Of a stretch of 23,572 nt of DNA, positions 6,641-22,561 are shown piece by piece. The number at the start of each line of letters is the position of its first letter. Within the stretch, counting starts at the first letter, position 1. A model generated the notes under the pieces. The model did not search any database and was not told the DNA's origin. It saw nothing but the letters and a program-made list of their open reading frames with translations. Both the position numbers and the translations under genes were made by a program. Source of the DNA: a virus; the IMG/VR virus record IMGVR_UViG_3300028581_000248, positions 1 through 23,572 of that record; one strand, given 5' to 3'.

Positions 6641-6966
6641 TATGCCAACACCCCGTGCATTCTTTCTCTTCCTGAATTATATTCTACTTTTTCTATGATT
6701 GCATTTTTAATTGATTTATTTGTATATCCATCACGAACAAGTCCGGCCCAAAGATCTAAAGTTCTGATTATAATATCTGCAAGCTCAATCACAACTACGT
6801 CCCCGCCCTGATTCTTTCTCATTGCTTCTAATACCTCTGTAGCCTCTGAATGAATCATTGCAACCTGTTTCATATAAAAAATAAGACCGTTGTTAGCCTC
6901 CCAAAACCCTTTGTCAACCGCATTACTATGAATCTGAAAAGCTACCTCATCTAAATCGTATGTCAT
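6640..6966 (-). CDS. MazG-like nucleotide pyrophosphohydrolase
   Basis: The 108-residue helical protein has the MazG-superfamily metal site: E41-x2-E44 (HSEATEVLEAMR) and E61-x2-D64 (VIELADIIIRTL). It ends with the phage-typical segment YNSGRERMHG. Such enzymes hydrolyse (d)NTPs to monophosphates and pyrophosphate, cleaning or steering the nucleotide pool; some phage members are thought to lower host alarmones such as (p)ppGpp. It overlaps the polymerase gene upstream by four bases (ATGA) and recA downstream by one (TAATG), so it is made with the replication enzymes. The substrate cannot be read from sequence. Confidence 0.82.
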   Translation of the reverse strand: MTYDLDEVAFQIHSNAVDKGFWEANNGLIFYMKQVAMIHSEATEVLEAMRKNQGGDVVVIELADIIIRTLDLWAGLVRDGYTNKSIKNAIIEKVEYNSGRERMHGVLA

Positions 6967-9900
6967 TTGCTTATCTCCTTTAGTGTTATTGTTCCGTCTT
7001 TCATTTCGCTCATCGTAAGTTTTCTAACAGCCCCAGGCTCACACTTCATATACGCCTCTGCAAACATGGTTGGGAAAACAACAACAGAAGTAAGATTCCT
7101 ATCGTAATCTGCTATTGTCAAATATCCCATTCTTTTTCCAGCCTTTGTCATTCTTGGGGTAAATGATAAAACATAATATTCATCTTGACCATATGGAAGA
7201 GTTTTATAGTTTAAGAACCTTACTAATGAGGACTTGCTTTCTTTAACCTCATCAATCGGTACCGCTTCTGCAATTCTATTAGAAGAGGCTAGTATAAGGT
7301 ATGTCTTACCCTGCTCTATTTTACTTTCTTCATTGTCAAATATACCAATGCTACCAGTCTTATCTAAGAAGTCTACCCTTGACCAGCCCGTACCTCTCTT
7401 TACCTTCTTTGCCATTCCCATTAGAATCTGGCAACCAGCCTCATCAAAATCCTCATTGTTGTCCACATATGCGTAATAGTGAACAGGAACTGTCATATTA
7501 AATTCTGGTAGATTAAGGTACTCGTACAAGCTATCTCTAACAGAGTCTTCATTTCTTGGGTGGTCACTAAAGGTTAGTGCTCCAATAGCATCAAGAGCCT
7601 GTGTCGCTCTGGAGTTTATTCCACTACCCTTCTTTGAAGCAACATCCATGACATTAGCATAGGATGTGAACGGCCTGCTACTTATGATCTTTCCCGCCAC
7701 ATTATCTGAAATCCACTTTACAGAAGACAATCCAAATCTAATTCCCTTGCCTTCAATTTTAAAATCTATATCTGATTCGTTAACATGTGGAAGCTTAAGA
7801 GAAATACCCATCCGCTTAGCCTCAATTAGATATTCTGTTCTTGCATCTTTTTCTTTCTCATTCTTTAAGATAGAATACATAAACTCTGTAGGATAATAAA
7901 ACTTTAACCATGCCGTCCAATATGAAAGCATGGAATAAGCAACCGCATGGCTCTTGTTAAAAGAATATCCAGCATGGGCTTCAAAGTCATGCCAAAGTGC
8001 TTGAGCCATGAATGGACTCATATAGGTTGTGGCATTGCTAACAAACTTATCTTTAAACTCATCAAACTCTTTTGCATCCTTCTTCTTTCCAATAATCTTT
8101 CTGACTTTGTTTGCTTCTGCCATTGTCATTCCACCAAGGGTAATGCAGGCTTGCATCACCTGCTCTTGATATAGCACTTGGCCATACGTATCTTCTAGAT
8201 AGGGTTTCATTACTGGGTGGATATATTCTACAATATTTCTACCACTTTTTCTTGCAACATATTCTTTACCAATAGTATTCATGGCACCGGGTCTTACCAA
8301 TGCGTTAGACGCAACCAACTCATCAAAGTTGCTAACCCCCATCTTTATTAGAAGATTTGTGTAGGGGCCAGCCTCGCACTGGAACACTCCTTTGGTATGA
8401 CCATCTGAAAGCATTTGATAAATGTCTTTGTCCTTAAACTCAAGGCTGCTCAAGTCAATATCAATACCATGCCTTTGCTTTATAGACTTTAGGGCATCGT
8501 CAATGACGGTCAATGTCTTTAGACCAAGGGCATCAATCTTGATTAGACCAATTTCTGCAGCCTCATCCATGTCAACCGCAACTACTGGAATTCTTTCTGA
8601 GGTTGCTGGGTTGTTTCTGGTTTCCATTGGAGCATACTTAAATATCGGTTCCTTGGAAGTTACAACGCCAGCGGCATGGATACCCGTCCCCCGAATTCTT
8701 CCCCTTAAACTCTCCCCATACTCTCTAACCTCTGGATACTTATCTCTAAACCATGCAACGTTTGAAGAATGGCAATAGTCTTCCCATGTATCTATATTCT
8801 TTAGCGCCTTATTAACATCTGACAGCGGTACATTGAATATTCTAGAAACGTCCCTGACAATTCCCTTCCCACGAAATTGTAAGAAGGTAGCAATTGATGC
8901 AACATTCTTATATTCTCTTTCAAGGTAAGACTTAATCTCATCTCTTCTGTTGTCTTGTATGTCAACATCTATATCTGGAACATCGTCCCGCCCGTAGTCA
9001 ATAAACCTAGAGAACAACAAATTATATTTTATTGGATCTGGCTCAGTAATTCCAAGGGCAAAACAAACTAAAGATCCAGCAGCAGATCCACGGCCTGGAC
9101 CAACTATGATTCCCTGCGACTTGGCCCACGAAACCATGTTATTAACCACTAAGAAATATGGGGCAAAGTTCTTTTCTTTAATGATGGATAGCTCTTCTGC
9201 TGCTCTTTCTAAATATATTTCATTGGTGTCTACTCCACGCAACTTCATTCCCTTTGAGACAAGAATCTCAAGTTCTTTTTGTGGATTTTCTACCTTTATT
9301 GGCAAAAGATTAAGATTGCTTTTAATTTTGTAATCCTCAACCTTATCAGCAATTTCTAGTGTATTGGAATAGATACTGTCGTCTAGTATTCCTTCGCTAT
9401 CCATTGCTCCCTTCATTTCATCATAAGAAAGAAGGTGAATATCAAAACTTCTAAAAGACATTCTTCTATCTTCTCCATATAGATAGTCAAGTCTTTGCAT
9501 CATGTCTTTATACTTTAAGGATTCATCATATGTTGAACCCTTTAATACCTTACCGTGTGTGCTAAGCAAAAGCATTAACTCTTGAGTAACCTTCTGATCA
9601 GCAGTACAGTGATGGCAGTCTGGAGTGGTTATGCATTTAACTCCCATTGCCTTGGCCAAGAGGTGGAGTTCGGTATTCATCCCAGCGACATTATGTGGCA
9701 TTAGCTCTACATAAAAGTCATCACCAAACCTATTTTTAAACCAACCAATGCGCTCTTTAGCAACAGCGTATTCGTCTGCTTCTATTGCCTTGTTAAGCAG
9801 ACCAGACATACAAGCAGAAGAAACTATAAGACCTTCGCCATACTTATCAAGAACCTCAAAGTCTATGCGTGGTTTCTTATAGTACCCCTCTGTCCACCCA

Positions 9901-10238
9901 ATCTCATTCAACCGATTTAGATTCTGCAACCCCTTGGAATCTTTTGCAAGAATAACAATATGATTATATATGAGGTCTAGAGGATCTGCCCTTTCAGACT
10001 TGTCTCTTTTGTCAAACCTATCTCTAGCAATGTATGCTTCTATGCCAAGGATGGGCTTAATACCCATTTCTTTTGCAGCACGATACATTCTCCTGTGTGC
10101 AGAAAGAGAACCGTGATCGGTTATACCAATTGCTGGCATACCTAATTGGGCCGCTCTTGCCGCATACTCTTCTGGAGTGGCTACCCCGTCCATGAGGGAG
10201 CCCATGTCGGTGTGAACGTGAAGTGGGACGTAGTTCAA
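6963..10238 (-). CDS. dnaE: DNA polymerase III alpha subunit (DnaE1-like, with PHP domain)
   Basis: A 1091-residue C-family replicative polymerase. The N-terminal PHP domain keeps all nine expected metal ligands: H7, H9, D17, H42, E67, H93, C143, D207 and H209. It may therefore proofread, as in mycobacterial DnaE1. The palm has GPGRGSAAGSLV (380-391), the catalytic pair D424/D426 (PDIDVDIQD) and D569 (LIKIDALGL). Fingers motifs follow (GVFQCE, QEQVMQ, FNKSHAVAY), then a helix-hairpin-helix (DAIGAL, about 883) and a C-terminal OB domain (about 1000-1090). A clamp-binding peptide is not obvious. The start is TTG, five bases after the ssb stop, with no good ribosome site; the next Met is too late. 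Translation probably depends on coupling to ssb and should be low. Confidence 0.95.
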   Translation of the reverse strand: MNYVPLHVHTDMGSLMDGVATPEEYAARAAQLGMPAIGITDHGSLSAHRRMYRAAKEMGIKPILGIEAYIARDRFDKRDKSERADPLDLIYNHIVILAKDSKGLQNLNRLNEIGWTEGYYKKPRIDFEVLDKYGEGLIVSSACMSGLLNKAIEADEYAVAKERIGWFKNRFGDDFYVELMPHNVAGMNTELHLLAKAMGVKCITTPDCHHCTADQKVTQELMLLLSTHGKVLKGSTYDESLKYKDMMQRLDYLYGEDRRMSFRSFDIHLLSYDEMKGAMDSEGILDDSIYSNTLEIADKVEDYKIKSNLNLLPIKVENPQKELEILVSKGMKLRGVDTNEIYLERAAEELSIIKEKNFAPYFLVVNNMVSWAKSQGIIVGPGRGSAAGSLVCFALGITEPDPIKYNLLFSRFIDYGRDDVPDIDVDIQDNRRDEIKSYLEREYKNVASIATFLQFRGKGIVRDVSRIFNVPLSDVNKALKNIDTWEDYCHSSNVAWFRDKYPEVREYGESLRGRIRGTGIHAAGVVTSKEPIFKYAPMETRNNPATSERIPVVAVDMDEAAEIGLIKIDALGLKTLTVIDDALKSIKQRHGIDIDLSSLEFKDKDIYQMLSDGHTKGVFQCEAGPYTNLLIKMGVSNFDELVASNALVRPGAMNTIGKEYVARKSGRNIVEYIHPVMKPYLEDTYGQVLYQEQVMQACITLGGMTMAEANKVRKIIGKKKDAKEFDEFKDKFVSNATTYMSPFMAQALWHDFEAHAGYSFNKSHAVAYSMLSYWTAWLKFYYPTEFMYSILKNEKEKDARTEYLIEAKRMGISLKLPHVNESDIDFKIEGKGIRFGLSSVKWISDNVAGKIISSRPFTSYANVMDVASKKGSGINSRATQALDAIGALTFSDHPRNEDSVRDSLYEYLNLPEFNMTVPVHYYAYVDNNEDFDEAGCQILMGMAKKVKRGTGWSRVDFLDKTGSIGIFDNEESKIEQGKTYLILASSNRIAEAVPIDEVKESKSSLVRFLNYKTLPYGQDEYYVLSFTPRMTKAGKRMGYLTIADYDRNLTSVVVFPTMFAEAYMKCEPGAVRKLTMSEMKDGTITLKEISK

Positions 10239-10243
10239 GTCAT

Positions 10244-10891
10244 CTACCAGTCAACTGTTGCTGACGTGGTTGGGTTATCAAACCCAAGGTAGAACGCTTC
10301 TTGTTCTGCATAGGGAACGTTACGAACCGCACCCTCCAATGGAAATGCTTGGTATTCTGACCAATCAAACTCTTCCGTGTCGGGTGACCCAGGAATTAAA
10401 ATATAATTGGTTTCAGTACCCTTGCCACTTCTCTTTAGCTTCCAAACCATATTGGTGATGCCATTAGACTCCATGGCATATTCTCGAATTGTGCTAAAGG
10501 TGGCAGACTTTGCAACACCCATACTCCATACTGCCGCATATGGCTCTTCAACTCCATCATCAACAAGTACGTTAATGTAGAACCTTAAGCGCCCAGCCCA
10601 TCCAGCCTTTGGATCTTTTCTATGCATCTCTTCGGCCCAGTCGCGGCCCTCTGACTCCATTGTGTCAACGGCCTTACGCTTGTAATCCTTTGGATTGGTG
10701 TGTTCTTTGACAACGATAGCCAAGCCATTCTTTTCATTATAGTGTGCAGAATCCTCGTCTATCTCATTCATGAACCTAATCTTCATGCTTTGACCGTCCT
10801 CTAGCTTAAGCCAGCGAACCCGTGGTCCAGATGCCTGAGCCTTTGGCTTCATTGCATCGTTGATATCTTTTAACCCTCTAATTATTGTCAT
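10244..10891 (-). CDS. phage single-stranded DNA-binding protein
   Basis: The 215-residue protein lies between primase and polymerase genes. It has the features of the OB-fold ssDNA-binding proteins of large phages (gp32-like type) rather than bacterial SSB: a basic, aromatic start (PRVRWLKLEDGQSMKIRF), a core with WAGRLRFYINVLVDDG, an AAVWSMGVAKSATF strand, then NMVWKLKRSGKGTETNYIL. Unlike bacterial SSB it has no acidic C-terminal DDIPF-type tip, although it ends with Asp-Trp. It should coat single strands at the fork and in recombination. The ATG at 10891 has AAGGAG at ideal spacing, one of the strongest initiation sites here, fitting a protein needed in many copies. Assignment rests on pattern memory and context. 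Confidence 0.72.
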   Translation of the reverse strand: MTIIRGLKDINDAMKPKAQASGPRVRWLKLEDGQSMKIRFMNEIDEDSAHYNEKNGLAIVVKEHTNPKDYKRKAVDTMESEGRDWAEEMHRKDPKAGWAGRLRFYINVLVDDGVEEPYAAVWSMGVAKSATFSTIREYAMESNGITNMVWKLKRSGKGTETNYILIPGSPDTEEFDWSEYQAFPLEGAVRNVPYAEQEAFYLGFDNPTTSATVDW

Positions 10892-10916: not shown

Positions 10917-11870
10917 CTACTGTAATATGTAGCTTAGTTCGTCATCAAACTTTGAAACAAACTCTGATAGTCTTTGATCATCCATATCTGAAACATCTTT
11001 AACATCTTCAGGGAGATCAGCAGTTATGAGTGGACTGTTAAGATAAACCTTTAACTTTTCTCTCATCCCTCGCCCAGCCTCATCATTATCTGACAATAGT
11101 ATTATACTCCTAAAGTATCTTTTAAGCAACTCCTTCTGATGCTTGCTTACCGTGGCTCCCAGGGTGGCTATAGCATGTACTCCAACCTGCTCTAACCGAA
11201 TAGCGTCAAATGATGACTCAACAACAAAAACTTTATCATATCTTTTTGAAGAGGAAAGATTAAACATTGTCTTACTTTTTAATAAACCTATGCTATTTTT
11301 AAAATCTTTACCCTCAATTGATCTAGCAACAAATCCAATATACCTTCCATCTGGAGCAGTAATTGGAACAGTTACCATGTCTTGTTTTTCTGAGTATCCC
11401 AATAAGAATCTTTCTACGCTTTCCTTTTTTATTCCTCGCCCCTTTAGATAGGTGGCAGCCCTTGAAGAATTCAGGGCAGCAGAATTGAGAGTAATAATTA
11501 AGTCTTTATCAAACTCAACAAAGTCTTGTTCCTTTTTCCCAAGTAGTTCATCTATGTCTGAAACAATATTCTTTATACTAGCTTTTGAATGAATCATTCT
11601 CGTGGACTCAAAGAATGTTCTTTTAGATGAATACATGACTAATTCTGTTAGACTCTTTGATTCTTGGCAGCCAAAGCAGTAAAACTGTCCTGTAGTTTTT
11701 GAAACTTCTGCTGCTGGAGTTCTATAGTTATTATGATAGGGGCAGTATACGATGTAGTCGCTTTCTATTTCGTACTCTATATTGATTCCGCAGGTTTCCA
11801 GGACTCTTCTTGTTTGCTCTTCTGAATAGTAAGAGGAACCGTCCTGTTCTTGTCTACCCCTGATACGCAT
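10917..11870 (-). CDS. DnaG-type primase (short, CHC2 zinc finger plus TOPRIM)
   Basis: The 317-residue protein makes RNA primers for DNA synthesis. The zinc finger has C43-x2-H46 (YCPYH) and C65-x2-C68 (FYCFGC), the CHC2 pattern of DnaG. The catalytic TOPRIM domain shows E218 (VFVVESSFDAIRL) and D261/D263 (ILLSDNDEAGRGM). It is about half the length of bacterial DnaG and has no C-terminal helicase-binding domain, so contact with the DnaB-like helicase must work otherwise. The ATG at 11870 has GAAAGG just upstream. It overlaps the preceding gene by 94 bases in another frame, and no later Met precedes the zinc finger, so the overlap appears real. Confidence 0.9.
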   Translation of the reverse strand: MRIRGRQEQDGSSYYSEEQTRRVLETCGINIEYEIESDYIVYCPYHNNYRTPAAEVSKTTGQFYCFGCQESKSLTELVMYSSKRTFFESTRMIHSKASIKNIVSDIDELLGKKEQDFVEFDKDLIITLNSAALNSSRAATYLKGRGIKKESVERFLLGYSEKQDMVTVPITAPDGRYIGFVARSIEGKDFKNSIGLLKSKTMFNLSSSKRYDKVFVVESSFDAIRLEQVGVHAIATLGATVSKHQKELLKRYFRSIILLSDNDEAGRGMREKLKVYLNSPLITADLPEDVKDVSDMDDQRLSEFVSKFDDELSYILQ

Positions 11871-12106
11871 TGTGCCTTTCTCTTTCCTAGGAAAACCCCG
11901 TATACCGATAATAAAAAGTTAAATGTCTTTCCATTATACTGAACCGTAAAGTCTGGGTCAATATCATATCTAATAACGTAGCCTTTTCCTTGCATGATTG
12001 TTTTTAAAATATTTATATATTGTTCTTTAATGTTTGGGATGGCCGCTTCGTCATAGATTTCTCCGTCAATATTAAATTTTTTAATATTCTTATGTGAAAC
12101 AACCAT
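11777..12106 (-). CDS. unknown protein upstream of primase, leaderless-type start
   Basis: A 109-residue protein of unrecognised family. It begins basic and helical (MVVSHKNIKKFNIDGE), has a helix NIKEQYINILKTIMQ, then beta-rich segments (VIRYDIDPDFTVQYNGKTF) and a C-terminal stretch with FLGKRKAQCVSGVDKNRTV. The last 31 codons overlap the primase start in a different frame. Its ATG at 12106 has no Shine-Dalgarno sequence but lies six bases after a TATAAT. Its position between helicase and primase genes suggests a small replication accessory factor, but nothing in the sequence shows which. Confidence 0.7.
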   Translation of the reverse strand: MVVSHKNIKKFNIDGEIYDEAAIPNIKEQYINILKTIMQGKGYVIRYDIDPDFTVQYNGKTFNFLLSVYGVFLGKRKAQCVSGVDKNRTVPLTIQKSKQEESWKPAESI

Positions 12107-12118
12107 AGACTAATTATA
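12107..12118 (-). promoter_or_regulatory. TATAAT -10 box at leaderless spacing
   Basis: A perfect TATAAT (12113-12118, minus strand) is followed by six bases and the ATG at 12106, in the 19-base gap after the helicase gene. A transcript from it would start at the ATG, giving a leaderless mRNA for the unknown protein and then primase, SSB and polymerase. No ribosome site and no good -35 box are visible. The same arrangement occurs at 15-25. Confidence 0.45.
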
Positions 12119-12125
12119 CTATGAT

Positions 12126-13346
12126 TTAAATATCTTCCATGTCTTTATAAACAAACCTTCCTGCGTCAAAATCAACCCTGACTAAGAATTCACCCAGATA
12201 GCCCGACCTATTTTTTCTAAAAACACATTCTAAAATATCTGATGCGGGTTGACGACCAAGTGCTAAAACAAAGTCAGCGTCATATGCCAACTGCTTAGAC
12301 CACGCGACTTGACCAAGGGCTGGCACTGAGTTCATGTTTGTAGCGTCATCAGGGGTCGCAGAGGCGATAGCAATGATAGGAACCTGCTCAGATATCGCTA
12401 GAATCTTAAGCTCTCTAGATATGTTCTTTATCTTAACAGTCTCATTGTCTGTTTGAGAATTGGCCTGCATTAACTGAATATAATCAACAAAAACAATGTC
12501 GGGACTATATTGATCAATCTTTCCCCGAATAATTGCTGGAGTTACTTCCCCAAGTCCATCATTAGAAACAATATGGAAAGATGGCATATCTTTAAAATAT
12601 GTTTGACTCCATCTCTTAAATTCTTCTATGTCAACTTCTCCCGCAGACATTTTCCTCAAAGAGAAACGACCATCTGCCATAATTGTATAAGCCCTGTTGC
12701 GAACTTCACTTTCCGTCATCTCTAAAGAAATAAATAAAGGCTTCTTGCCTGTCTTCCATGCCTGAACTGCAAGGTATAGGGCTAAAAAGGACTTTCCAAT
12801 AGCGGGATATGCAAGCAATATTCCAAAGTTTCCTGGCATTATTCCTGCTGGCAGATAGTTGTCAAAACCGGCAAGACCTGTTTTGATTCCGTGATTACCC
12901 AGCCTGCTCATCTCTTCTATGTGATCGAAGTATGCAACGGCATCATCAATGTCTACAACATCTATATCACGAACATCTGCTGTTGATCTTTTTAGATCTG
13001 CCGTCTTTGAGATTAGGGTATCTAGGGCGCCAACGGTTTGGTTATTATTTAATTGACTTGCACTTGTCTTAAGAATATCCCGAAGGGTGGCATCCAAGTA
13101 ACTTGACCGTAACTCGTCCAAATGATGCTTTGTAGACCCAACATTGCTAACAGGCTCAAAGTCTCTAAACTTATCTACCACAAGTTCCATTGGTGGGACG
13201 GACATATTTTGCTCTGAGTAGTTGCGAATGAACTGCCAGATATCCCCATGTGTTTTAAAAAGAGAGTCTGGATTGGCTTGCAGCAAGACATGTATCTGCT
13301 TGTCTTTTAGAACTGCCGTTAGTGTCTTTGCCTCTACATTATCCAT
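12126..13346 (-). CDS. dnaB: replicative DnaB-type DNA helicase
   Basis: The 406-residue protein is a hexameric RecA-fold helicase that unwinds the fork. Walker A is AYPAIGKS (179-186), with alanine replacing the usual first glycine. E209 follows the second strand (LFISLEMTESE), Walker B is VFVDYIQLM with D288, and the C-terminal FRKNRSG (R377, R380) supplies the arginine finger typical of DnaB and T7 gp4. The N-terminal part (1-120) is helical and shorter than in bacterial DnaB, fitting phage members. ATG at 13346 follows the previous stop with no gap. It pairs with the separate primase downstream. Confidence 0.92.
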   Translation of the reverse strand: MDNVEAKTLTAVLKDKQIHVLLQANPDSLFKTHGDIWQFIRNYSEQNMSVPPMELVVDKFRDFEPVSNVGSTKHHLDELRSSYLDATLRDILKTSASQLNNNQTVGALDTLISKTADLKRSTADVRDIDVVDIDDAVAYFDHIEEMSRLGNHGIKTGLAGFDNYLPAGIMPGNFGILLAYPAIGKSFLALYLAVQAWKTGKKPLFISLEMTESEVRNRAYTIMADGRFSLRKMSAGEVDIEEFKRWSQTYFKDMPSFHIVSNDGLGEVTPAIIRGKIDQYSPDIVFVDYIQLMQANSQTDNETVKIKNISRELKILAISEQVPIIAIASATPDDATNMNSVPALGQVAWSKQLAYDADFVLALGRQPASDILECVFRKNRSGYLGEFLVRVDFDAGRFVYKDMEDI

Positions 13347-14585: not shown

Positions 14586-15014
14586 CTATACTACAGGAAA
14601 TCCAATGGCCAAAATATTAACAAAGATATCTAAATTACCACCAGTATTAAAGGTTACCCTAAACGTACAGCTAGAAGTTGATATGTTTTTTAATACGACA
14701 ATTGAGTCGTCGCCAATACTGGACGATGCTCCAGAGACAATCGTTGCAGTAACAACTGGATTTCCGTTAAATGGAGGATAGGAAATCGTGTAGTCAACAA
14801 CGTCACCGTCGGTCTTGTTTGTACTAGCAAACACGTTAACTGTTTTAGCAAACATTTTTATGTCTGCCGTTTTTACAGTTACATCGTTAATTGTAGAAAA
14901 GGAAGAGGACCGATCTCCAACCAGGGTCGTCAATTGATTAACTTGGCCAGCTATTTGAGATATATAGTCTACATCTAAAGGCTGTCCCCTATTGGGTGTT
15001 GCTAATATGCCCAT
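14586..15014 (-). CDS. small tail-associated structural protein, last gene of tail module
   Basis: A 142-residue protein starting at ATG 15014 with AAGGAGA four bases upstream; a TTG at 15017 is less likely. The N-terminus (GILATPNRGQPLDVDYISQI) leads into a helix, and the rest is beta-rich with many Ser, Thr and Asn (SYPPFNGNPVVTATIV; TSSCTFRVTFNTGG), like the head domain of a fibre or baseplate protein. It follows the other tail genes and no enzyme motif is seen. It may be a short fibre, a decoration protein or part of the adhesin tip. Structural nature is likely; the exact role is not. Confidence 0.6.
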   Translation of the reverse strand: MGILATPNRGQPLDVDYISQIAGQVNQLTTLVGDRSSSFSTINDVTVKTADIKMFAKTVNVFASTNKTDGDVVDYTISYPPFNGNPVVTATIVSGASSSIGDDSIVVLKNISTSSCTFRVTFNTGGNLDIFVNILAIGFPVV

Positions 15015-15036
15015 CAATTCTCCTTGTTAAAGTATA

Positions 15037-21980: not shown

Positions 21981-22561
21981 TATACTTCCTCAAGGCTAAC
22001 AGATATGTCCCATAGATCATGATTTGTACTGCCTCGTTTAATAACTTTGTGCTCAAACGATGAAAAATATACTTGCAAGACTTGATTATATTCTGCTAAA
22101 TGATTATAGACATCTGAATTAAATTCATTATGTTTGTCGTATGCTAGCAGCATATGGAAAGGTCCGGTATGGGATTCATACCAGTCTATTAAATCAACCC
22201 CTCCAGATGCCATGTCTACAACGTAGTCCGTTATGTCATTAGTTAGCTGACCGCTTGCAGAAAAAGTTGGGGAAGCGGAAAACGCACGGGATGGTAAAAG
22301 ATTCCATGAAAAAGATATTTTTTGTTTATCTGCAATATGATAAGACCTCATTGTTCCATTAATCATTCTTTTCTTGCTTTCTATTCTTTCACAAGAAATT
22401 GATATCTCAGATCTATTATGATCTGAAAGAATTATAAAGTCTTCAAATTCTGTTCCCGTTGGAACAAATTTCCCATTGCTTGTCTCATATTCATCAGACC
22501 AGACAATTGCTTGTGGTCTTGAATAAAAAGATCTTCCTGCCATATATAAACTATTAGCCAC
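21980..22561 (-). CDS. distal-tail-like protein
   Basis: The 193-residue protein directly follows the tape measure gene, where distal tail (Dit-like) proteins are normally encoded. It is beta-rich with many aromatic residues, with segments such as ISCERIESKKRMINGTMRSY, KISFSWNLLPSRAF and LLAYDKHNEF. It ends with a strand pattern (DLWDISVSLEEV) typical of tail-tube or Dit beta-sandwich proteins. The start is GTG at 22561, overlapping the tape measure stop by eight bases; GGAG is twelve bases upstream, so coupling probably matters. It could also be a tail-tube-like or tail-completion protein. By analogy it links the tube to the large minor tail protein. Confidence 0.62.
   Translation of the reverse strand: MANSLYMAGRSFYSRPQAIVWSDEYETSNGKFVPTGTEFEDFIILSDHNRSEISISCERIESKKRMINGTMRSYHIADKQKISFSWNLLPSRAFSASPTFSASGQLTNDITDYVVDMASGGVDLIDWYESHTGPFHMLLAYDKHNEFNSDVYNHLAEYNQVLQVYFSSFEHKVIKRGSTNHDLWDISVSLEEV

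Follow-up and report, generated by a model that had tools for sequence, protein, structure and literature searches.

Does a TATAAT hexamer lying a few bases ahead of a start codon inside a phage replication operon act as a promoter for leaderless mRNA, and which gene would such a promoter serve? The question is raised by an IMG/VR viral record of 23,572 bases, analysed at its full length (the window; 38% GC), in which the main genes all lie on the minus strand. The upstream gene of the locus encodes a DnaB-like helicase (12126..13346, minus; Pfam DnaB_C 5e-30, phrog_19). It is followed by an ORF of 109 codons (ORF109; 11777-12106, minus; phrog_17515), a DNA primase gene with its own SD-like sequence (10917..11870, minus), a gene for a single-strand DNA binding protein (SSB; 10244..10891, minus; phrog_9721, 3e-43) with AAGGAGAT upstream, and a gene for a DnaE-like DNA polymerase III alpha (6963..10238, minus). 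ORF109 and the primase gene overlap by 94 nt (11777-11870) in different frames, and overlaps of these two genes are annotated in Streptomyces relatives too. A search of the window gave no Rfam match and no tRNA.

The junction between helicase and ORF109 contains TATAATTAGTCTATG (TATAAT-N6-ATG; 12118..12104, minus strand), made up of the TATAAT hexamer (12113..12118, minus), a 6-nt spacer (12107..12112, minus) and the ATG of ORF109 (12104..12106, minus). A previous reading of the letters without database searches (the sequence-only reading) had reported TATAAT-N6-ATG lacking a Shine-Dalgarno (SD) sequence in a gap between genes, leaving the strand unstated. This description is borne out on the minus strand, where 19 nt separate the helicase stop (12126) from the ORF109 ATG (12106), and the ORF109 start has no SD-like sequence. 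From this geometry, a leaderless mRNA is predicted whose first codon is this ATG, with transcription starting at 12106 or within 1-2 nt of it.

Exact TATAAT-N6-ATG is present as a single copy in the window. The bare match is non-significant, because 0.52 copies are expected by chance and 39 of 100 shuffled sequences contained at least one. The hexamer itself occurs 36 times, counting both strands together. Among the 29 listed gene starts (all on the minus strand), only that of ORF109 has a TATAAT in the -12..-7 slot, and the chance of any TATAAT falling at the exact offset before any of these starts is about 0.02 by our own arithmetic. It is position and conservation, not motif count, that set the TATAAT-N6-ATG apart.

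ORF109 has no match in Pfam. Its AlphaFold model has a mean pLDDT of 82, and the predicted fold matched nothing in the PDB at E <= 0.001 and gave one viral match (2.2e-7). Used alone as a protein query, ORF109 found no relatives among viral contigs, and a scan of genome contigs returned 49 distant matches (26-32% identity), with no host among them. Related IMG/VR loci were collected with the helicase (best 80 of 386 matches) and the primase (best 80 of at least 597) as queries, one locus being shared, giving 159 loci and, with the window, 160 sequences. Thirteen of these were left out: 10 lack ORF109, L022 and L069 end in or soon after the helicase at the contig end, and L141 lacks the helicase. 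The 147 with both helicase and ORF109 were counted. Clustering by helicase DNA identity gave 39 clusters at 90% and 13 at 80%; the 39 clusters are a fairer count than the 147 loci, because some contigs were fetched by both searches and so occur twice. Where several in-frame starts were possible, the one giving the gap nearest to 6 was chosen, with controls scored likewise, and the start in locus L047 was assigned by hand.

An exact TATAAT lies 5-7 nt ahead of the ORF109 start in 147/147 loci and 39/39 clusters (gap of 6 nt in 87 loci, 5 nt in 32 and 7 nt in 28). Across the 39 clusters, the hexamer columns carry 2.0 bits each, compared with 0.04-1.11 bits in the remaining columns from -45 to +19, and the sequence of the spacer is variable. 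The start codon is ATG in 38 clusters and GTG in one. SD-like 4-mers are present at -18..-4 before the ORF109 start in 2/39 clusters, versus 32/39 for the primase start, and at -13..-5 before the ORF109 start in none of the 39. The sequence-only reading had proposed to check whether TATAAT-N6-ATG is kept in relatives while the flanks vary; the relatives bear this out, with an invariant hexamer and a gap of 5-7 nt.

The element travels with ORF109 when the locus is rearranged. The helicase stop lies 12-36 nt from ORF109 in 34/39 clusters, and in 5/39 the distance is 474-1723 nt (three insert types), with the TATAAT still adjoining ORF109. Loci with extra genes at this place are L030, L045, L046, L103 and L145, and the insert-encoded proteins resemble DNA methylase, HNH endonuclease and metalloprotease enzymes. 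The ORF109 N-terminus is 9-10 residues longer in L134, L139, L140 and L149, and there the TATAAT is found 5 nt before the new ATG.

The reverse situation is provided by the 10 loci without ORF109, in which the primase lies within 30 nt of the helicase, and no TATAAT was found 5-7 nt before any start at the helicase-primase junction. In one of them, L137, a TATAAT is present, but within the primase reading frame. Two junction types can be told apart by eye, and the 10 loci may derive from one or two events. The joint absence of TATAAT and ORF109 therefore indicates that the element belongs with ORF109, not with primase, and on this comparative evidence ORF109 appears to be a better-supported client of the putative promoter than primase, SSB or polymerase. 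Another promoter is possible in the loci without ORF109, because 6/10 of them (L122, L132, L137, L147, L154 and L155) carry TATAAT-N7-ATG some 1 kb ahead of the helicase match, near locus position 1770-1802.

The same geometry recurs at other genes of related contigs. In 13 such contigs, which are not independent and in which a simple longest-ORF caller found 986 genes, 68 genes have a TATAAT 3-11 nt ahead of the start. The gap is 6 nt in 39 of them, 9 in 12, 7 in 6, 10 in 5 and 8 in 3, with one gene each at 3, 5 and 11; the 12 genes at gap 9 form a smaller second peak. With the same nearest-to-6 scoring, each of six control hexamers gave 0-2 genes at gap 6. Only 1/39 of the gap-6 genes is ORF109, because the caller drops most ORF109 copies overlapping primase. 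By blastp, the 46 genes at gap 5-7 represent 32 families, and one family in contigs G003, G007, G008, G012 and G015 consists of mutually similar TATAAT-led proteins beginning MPY, MPW or VPY. When the gene families of the window were compared in the 13 contigs, leaving out the gene at 22554, TATAAT-N5..7 was present at 13/13 ORF109 homologues and at 3/271 homologues of 27 other families. SD-like sequences precede 0/13 of these ORF109 homologues. Among TATAAT-led genes in general, SD-like sequences are depleted at other gaps too (6/22, versus 10/46 at gap 5-7), and the depletion was for this reason not used as evidence. The pattern counts show a bias to one strand in many of 21 related contigs, among the matches listed. 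The window gene at 14586-15017 is SD-led here, and its homologues in two related contigs (G014 and G017) are TATAAT-N6/7-led, so that the initiation mode switches between homologues in this family.

Apart from the hexamer, few promoter parts are evident. No -35 is conserved, the best hexamer reaching 4/6 matches in 12/39 clusters, compared with about 8/39 at control positions (4 or 5 of 6). A promoter scan did not return the site at 12118..12104, because the scan demands a -35. The TG of an extended -10 is present in 13/39 clusters, and the window copy lacks it. In 10 contigs, counted on the sense strand, a TG placed two bases ahead of TATAAT is enriched where an ATG/GTG follows at gap 6 (17/42, versus 57/423 otherwise; p=5e-5). 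Two candidates with a -35-like sequence in the window were rejected as promoters. TTGACC-17-TATAAT at 11961-11933 codes for a conserved DIDPDFTxxYN motif, and among the 22 rows listed (of 39 clusters) just 13 retain its TAT AAT. TTGACA-17-TAAAAT at 13971-13943 is coding, and 23 of the 24 relative rows listed have another sequence in its second hexamer.

Which sigma factor could read a promoter of this kind? Among 21 related contigs, which are possibly incomplete, none has a sigma-70 region 2, and the one match to region 4 is below the cut-off. Because of this possible incompleteness, a phage sigma factor could have escaped notice; the lack of region 2 or 4 above the cut-off suggests host sigma-A as the likely reader. 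By comparison, isolated Nanopelagicales phages are described in passages of PMC10202952 as carrying a sigma-70 factor, and none was found above the cut-off in the 21 contigs here. The same passages suggest WhiB as a key indicator for actinophages, and its presence in 13/21 of our contigs points to hosts that are probably actinobacterial. Phage records with a helicase match (n=137) come from Streptomyces (127), Rhodococcus (9) and Acinetobacter (1). The actinobacterial setting assumed in the sequence-only reading is thus supported only indirectly, by WhiB and by the fact that most of the nearest named relatives come from Streptomyces and Rhodococcus.

The sequence-only reading had also given primase, SSB and polymerase a promoter independent of the helicase transcript. 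Terminator-like sites, counted on both strands, are not more frequent than in shuffled sequences (2 versus 3.2, and 5 versus 4.6), and run-on from ORF109 to polymerase is plausible, because no terminator of note lies in between. The putative role of the element as a promoter for the three downstream genes is weakened by its absence, together with ORF109, from the 10 loci described above.

Among cultured relatives, the closest with a name belong to the Stanwilliamsviridae of Streptomyces; Rhodococcus phage NiceHouse is a weaker case. The helicase-ORF-primase-SSB-DnaE block of Stanwilliamsviridae has the same gene order as the window, and its ORF109 homologue shows 30-42% identity among the matches listed. 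In the nine records examined out of 128 with a homologue (eight Stanwilliamsviridae and NiceHouse; some by reading the sequence), the junction lacks TATAAT and the ORF directly adjoins or overlaps the stop of the helicase gene, whereas the window has TATAAT and a 19-nt gap. These nine junctions indicate that TATAAT is not required everywhere. Elsewhere in five cultured relatives, TATAAT-N6-ATG occurs at 20 sites, 19 of them on the forward strand, and the reversed pattern occurs once. At 16 of the 20 sites the ATG coincides with an annotated CDS start, at three it is an in-frame alternative start, and at one it opens an unannotated 19-codon ORF.

We hypothesize that the element is a leaderless promoter with a -10 only, read by host sigma-A, which serves ORF109 and probably runs on into primase, SSB and polymerase. 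We consider this very probable, and the leaderless -10 of the sequence-only reading gains support from its placement, its conservation in close relatives and the same geometry in related contigs and cultured relatives. Leaderless initiation is carried out by 70S ribosomes on a 5'-terminal AUG and needs no SD. The host primary sigma factor (sigma-A/HrdB type) would read the -10-only promoter, and RNA polymerase would melt the TATAAT and start about 7 nt past the hexamer, at the A of the ORF109 ATG. On the resulting leaderless mRNA, 70S ribosomes would initiate at the 5'-terminal AUG without an SD, and the transcript would continue through primase, SSB and the DnaE polymerase. We infer that the supply of ORF109 would be the main purpose of the promoter.

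The variation of the gap bears on the exact start. A real -10 promoter could start a few nt off the A, producing a very short leader or an RNA that begins inside the ORF, and the gap of 5-7 nt in relatives would agree with this, as RNA polymerase start-site choice varies by 1-2 nt. Such an offset seems quite unlikely given the dominance of gap 6 at other genes (39/68 starts with TATAAT at gaps 3-11). A further explanation dispenses with a promoter: ORF109 would be translated only by being coupled to the helicase gene on a single long mRNA, the TATAAT serving as an AT-rich, unstructured spacer for re-initiation. What is invariant, however, is the exact hexamer and not mere AT-richness, and it is kept in the 5/39 clusters with 474-1723 nt between the genes. 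The gap-6 peak at other genes and the enrichment of the extended -10 TG also argue against coupling, making it highly improbable in spite of the short distance between helicase stop and ORF109 in 34/39 clusters and of the TGATG overlap at the junction in Samisti12, Bartholomune and EGole, whose ORF109 homologues have no TATAAT. A chance match in an AT-rich genome, for which the expected 0.52 copies per window would speak, is refuted by the conservation in 147/147 loci and the placement at a start without SD. Another kind of DNA site near the replication genes, for instance a repressor operator or a segment of a replication origin, could be suspected from the location between helicase and primase genes and has a negligible probability, because strict conservation is limited to the hexamer, the start-codon distance is held while the helicase distance shifts by up to 1.7 kb, and the same geometry recurs at other genes.

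The leaderless -10 promoter preferred here is a known kind of signal; its conservation is unusually good. TA-led genes, as presented in sections of PMC3160421, have no SD and a TANNNT/TATAAT located about 12 bp ahead of the start, are read as leaderless, and make up more than 20% of Actinobacteria genes. The element shares both features with them: the first base of its TATAAT is at -12 in the window, and the start lacks an SD there and across the clusters. It also agrees with the TATAAT -10 hexamer of primary sigma factors (sigma-70/sigma-A) at 6/6 bases, invariant in 39 clusters. Compared with the TA-led genes in those sections, it belongs to a phage of 38% GC and is a perfect TATAAT in one gene family over 39 clusters. 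The excerpted account of cluster O mycobacteriophages (PMC4351075), another phage group, presents PL1, PR2 and PL2 as leaderless SigA promoters predicted with -35 and -10 weights, whereas the present site has no conserved -35 and lies within a replication operon. In Deinococcus-Thermus, as outlined in part of PMC12340547, a -10 motif at a set spacing from the ORF leads to leaderless mRNA, as proposed here; those genes are bacterial, belong to a different phylum and come with experiments, whereas the present element is a prediction from sequence. In the open-licence literature, no description of a TATAAT-N6-ATG element in these phages was found.

Within one gene family, a leaderless start signal is thus retained despite insertions, N-terminal changes and start shifts, and many metagenomic phages are available for checking the conservation of this start-codon-locked promoter candidate. 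We also raise, with considerable doubt, the idea that an uncultured actinophage lineage, apparently without its own sigma factor, has a second layer of gene expression based on a strict TATAAT-N6-ATG code. If so, about 5% of the called genes (46/986, gap 5-7) would be leaderless and stand apart from the SD-led operons, with ORF109 as the most conserved client. These genes would depend on host sigma-A and 70S initiation, and could be expressed under conditions that limit SD-led translation.

Laboratory tests of the rule do not depend on the host of the window virus, because sites with this geometry coincide with annotated starts in cultured Streptomyces and Rhodococcus phages. The motif may also aid annotation, since it suggests another in-frame start for three annotated cultured-phage genes, in which the annotated CDS start differs, in frame, from the TATAAT-N6-ATG start (NC_070784.1, 84201 and 101081; NC_070781.1, 64686). 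One of these three discordant annotated starts falls inside an annotated tRNA gene.
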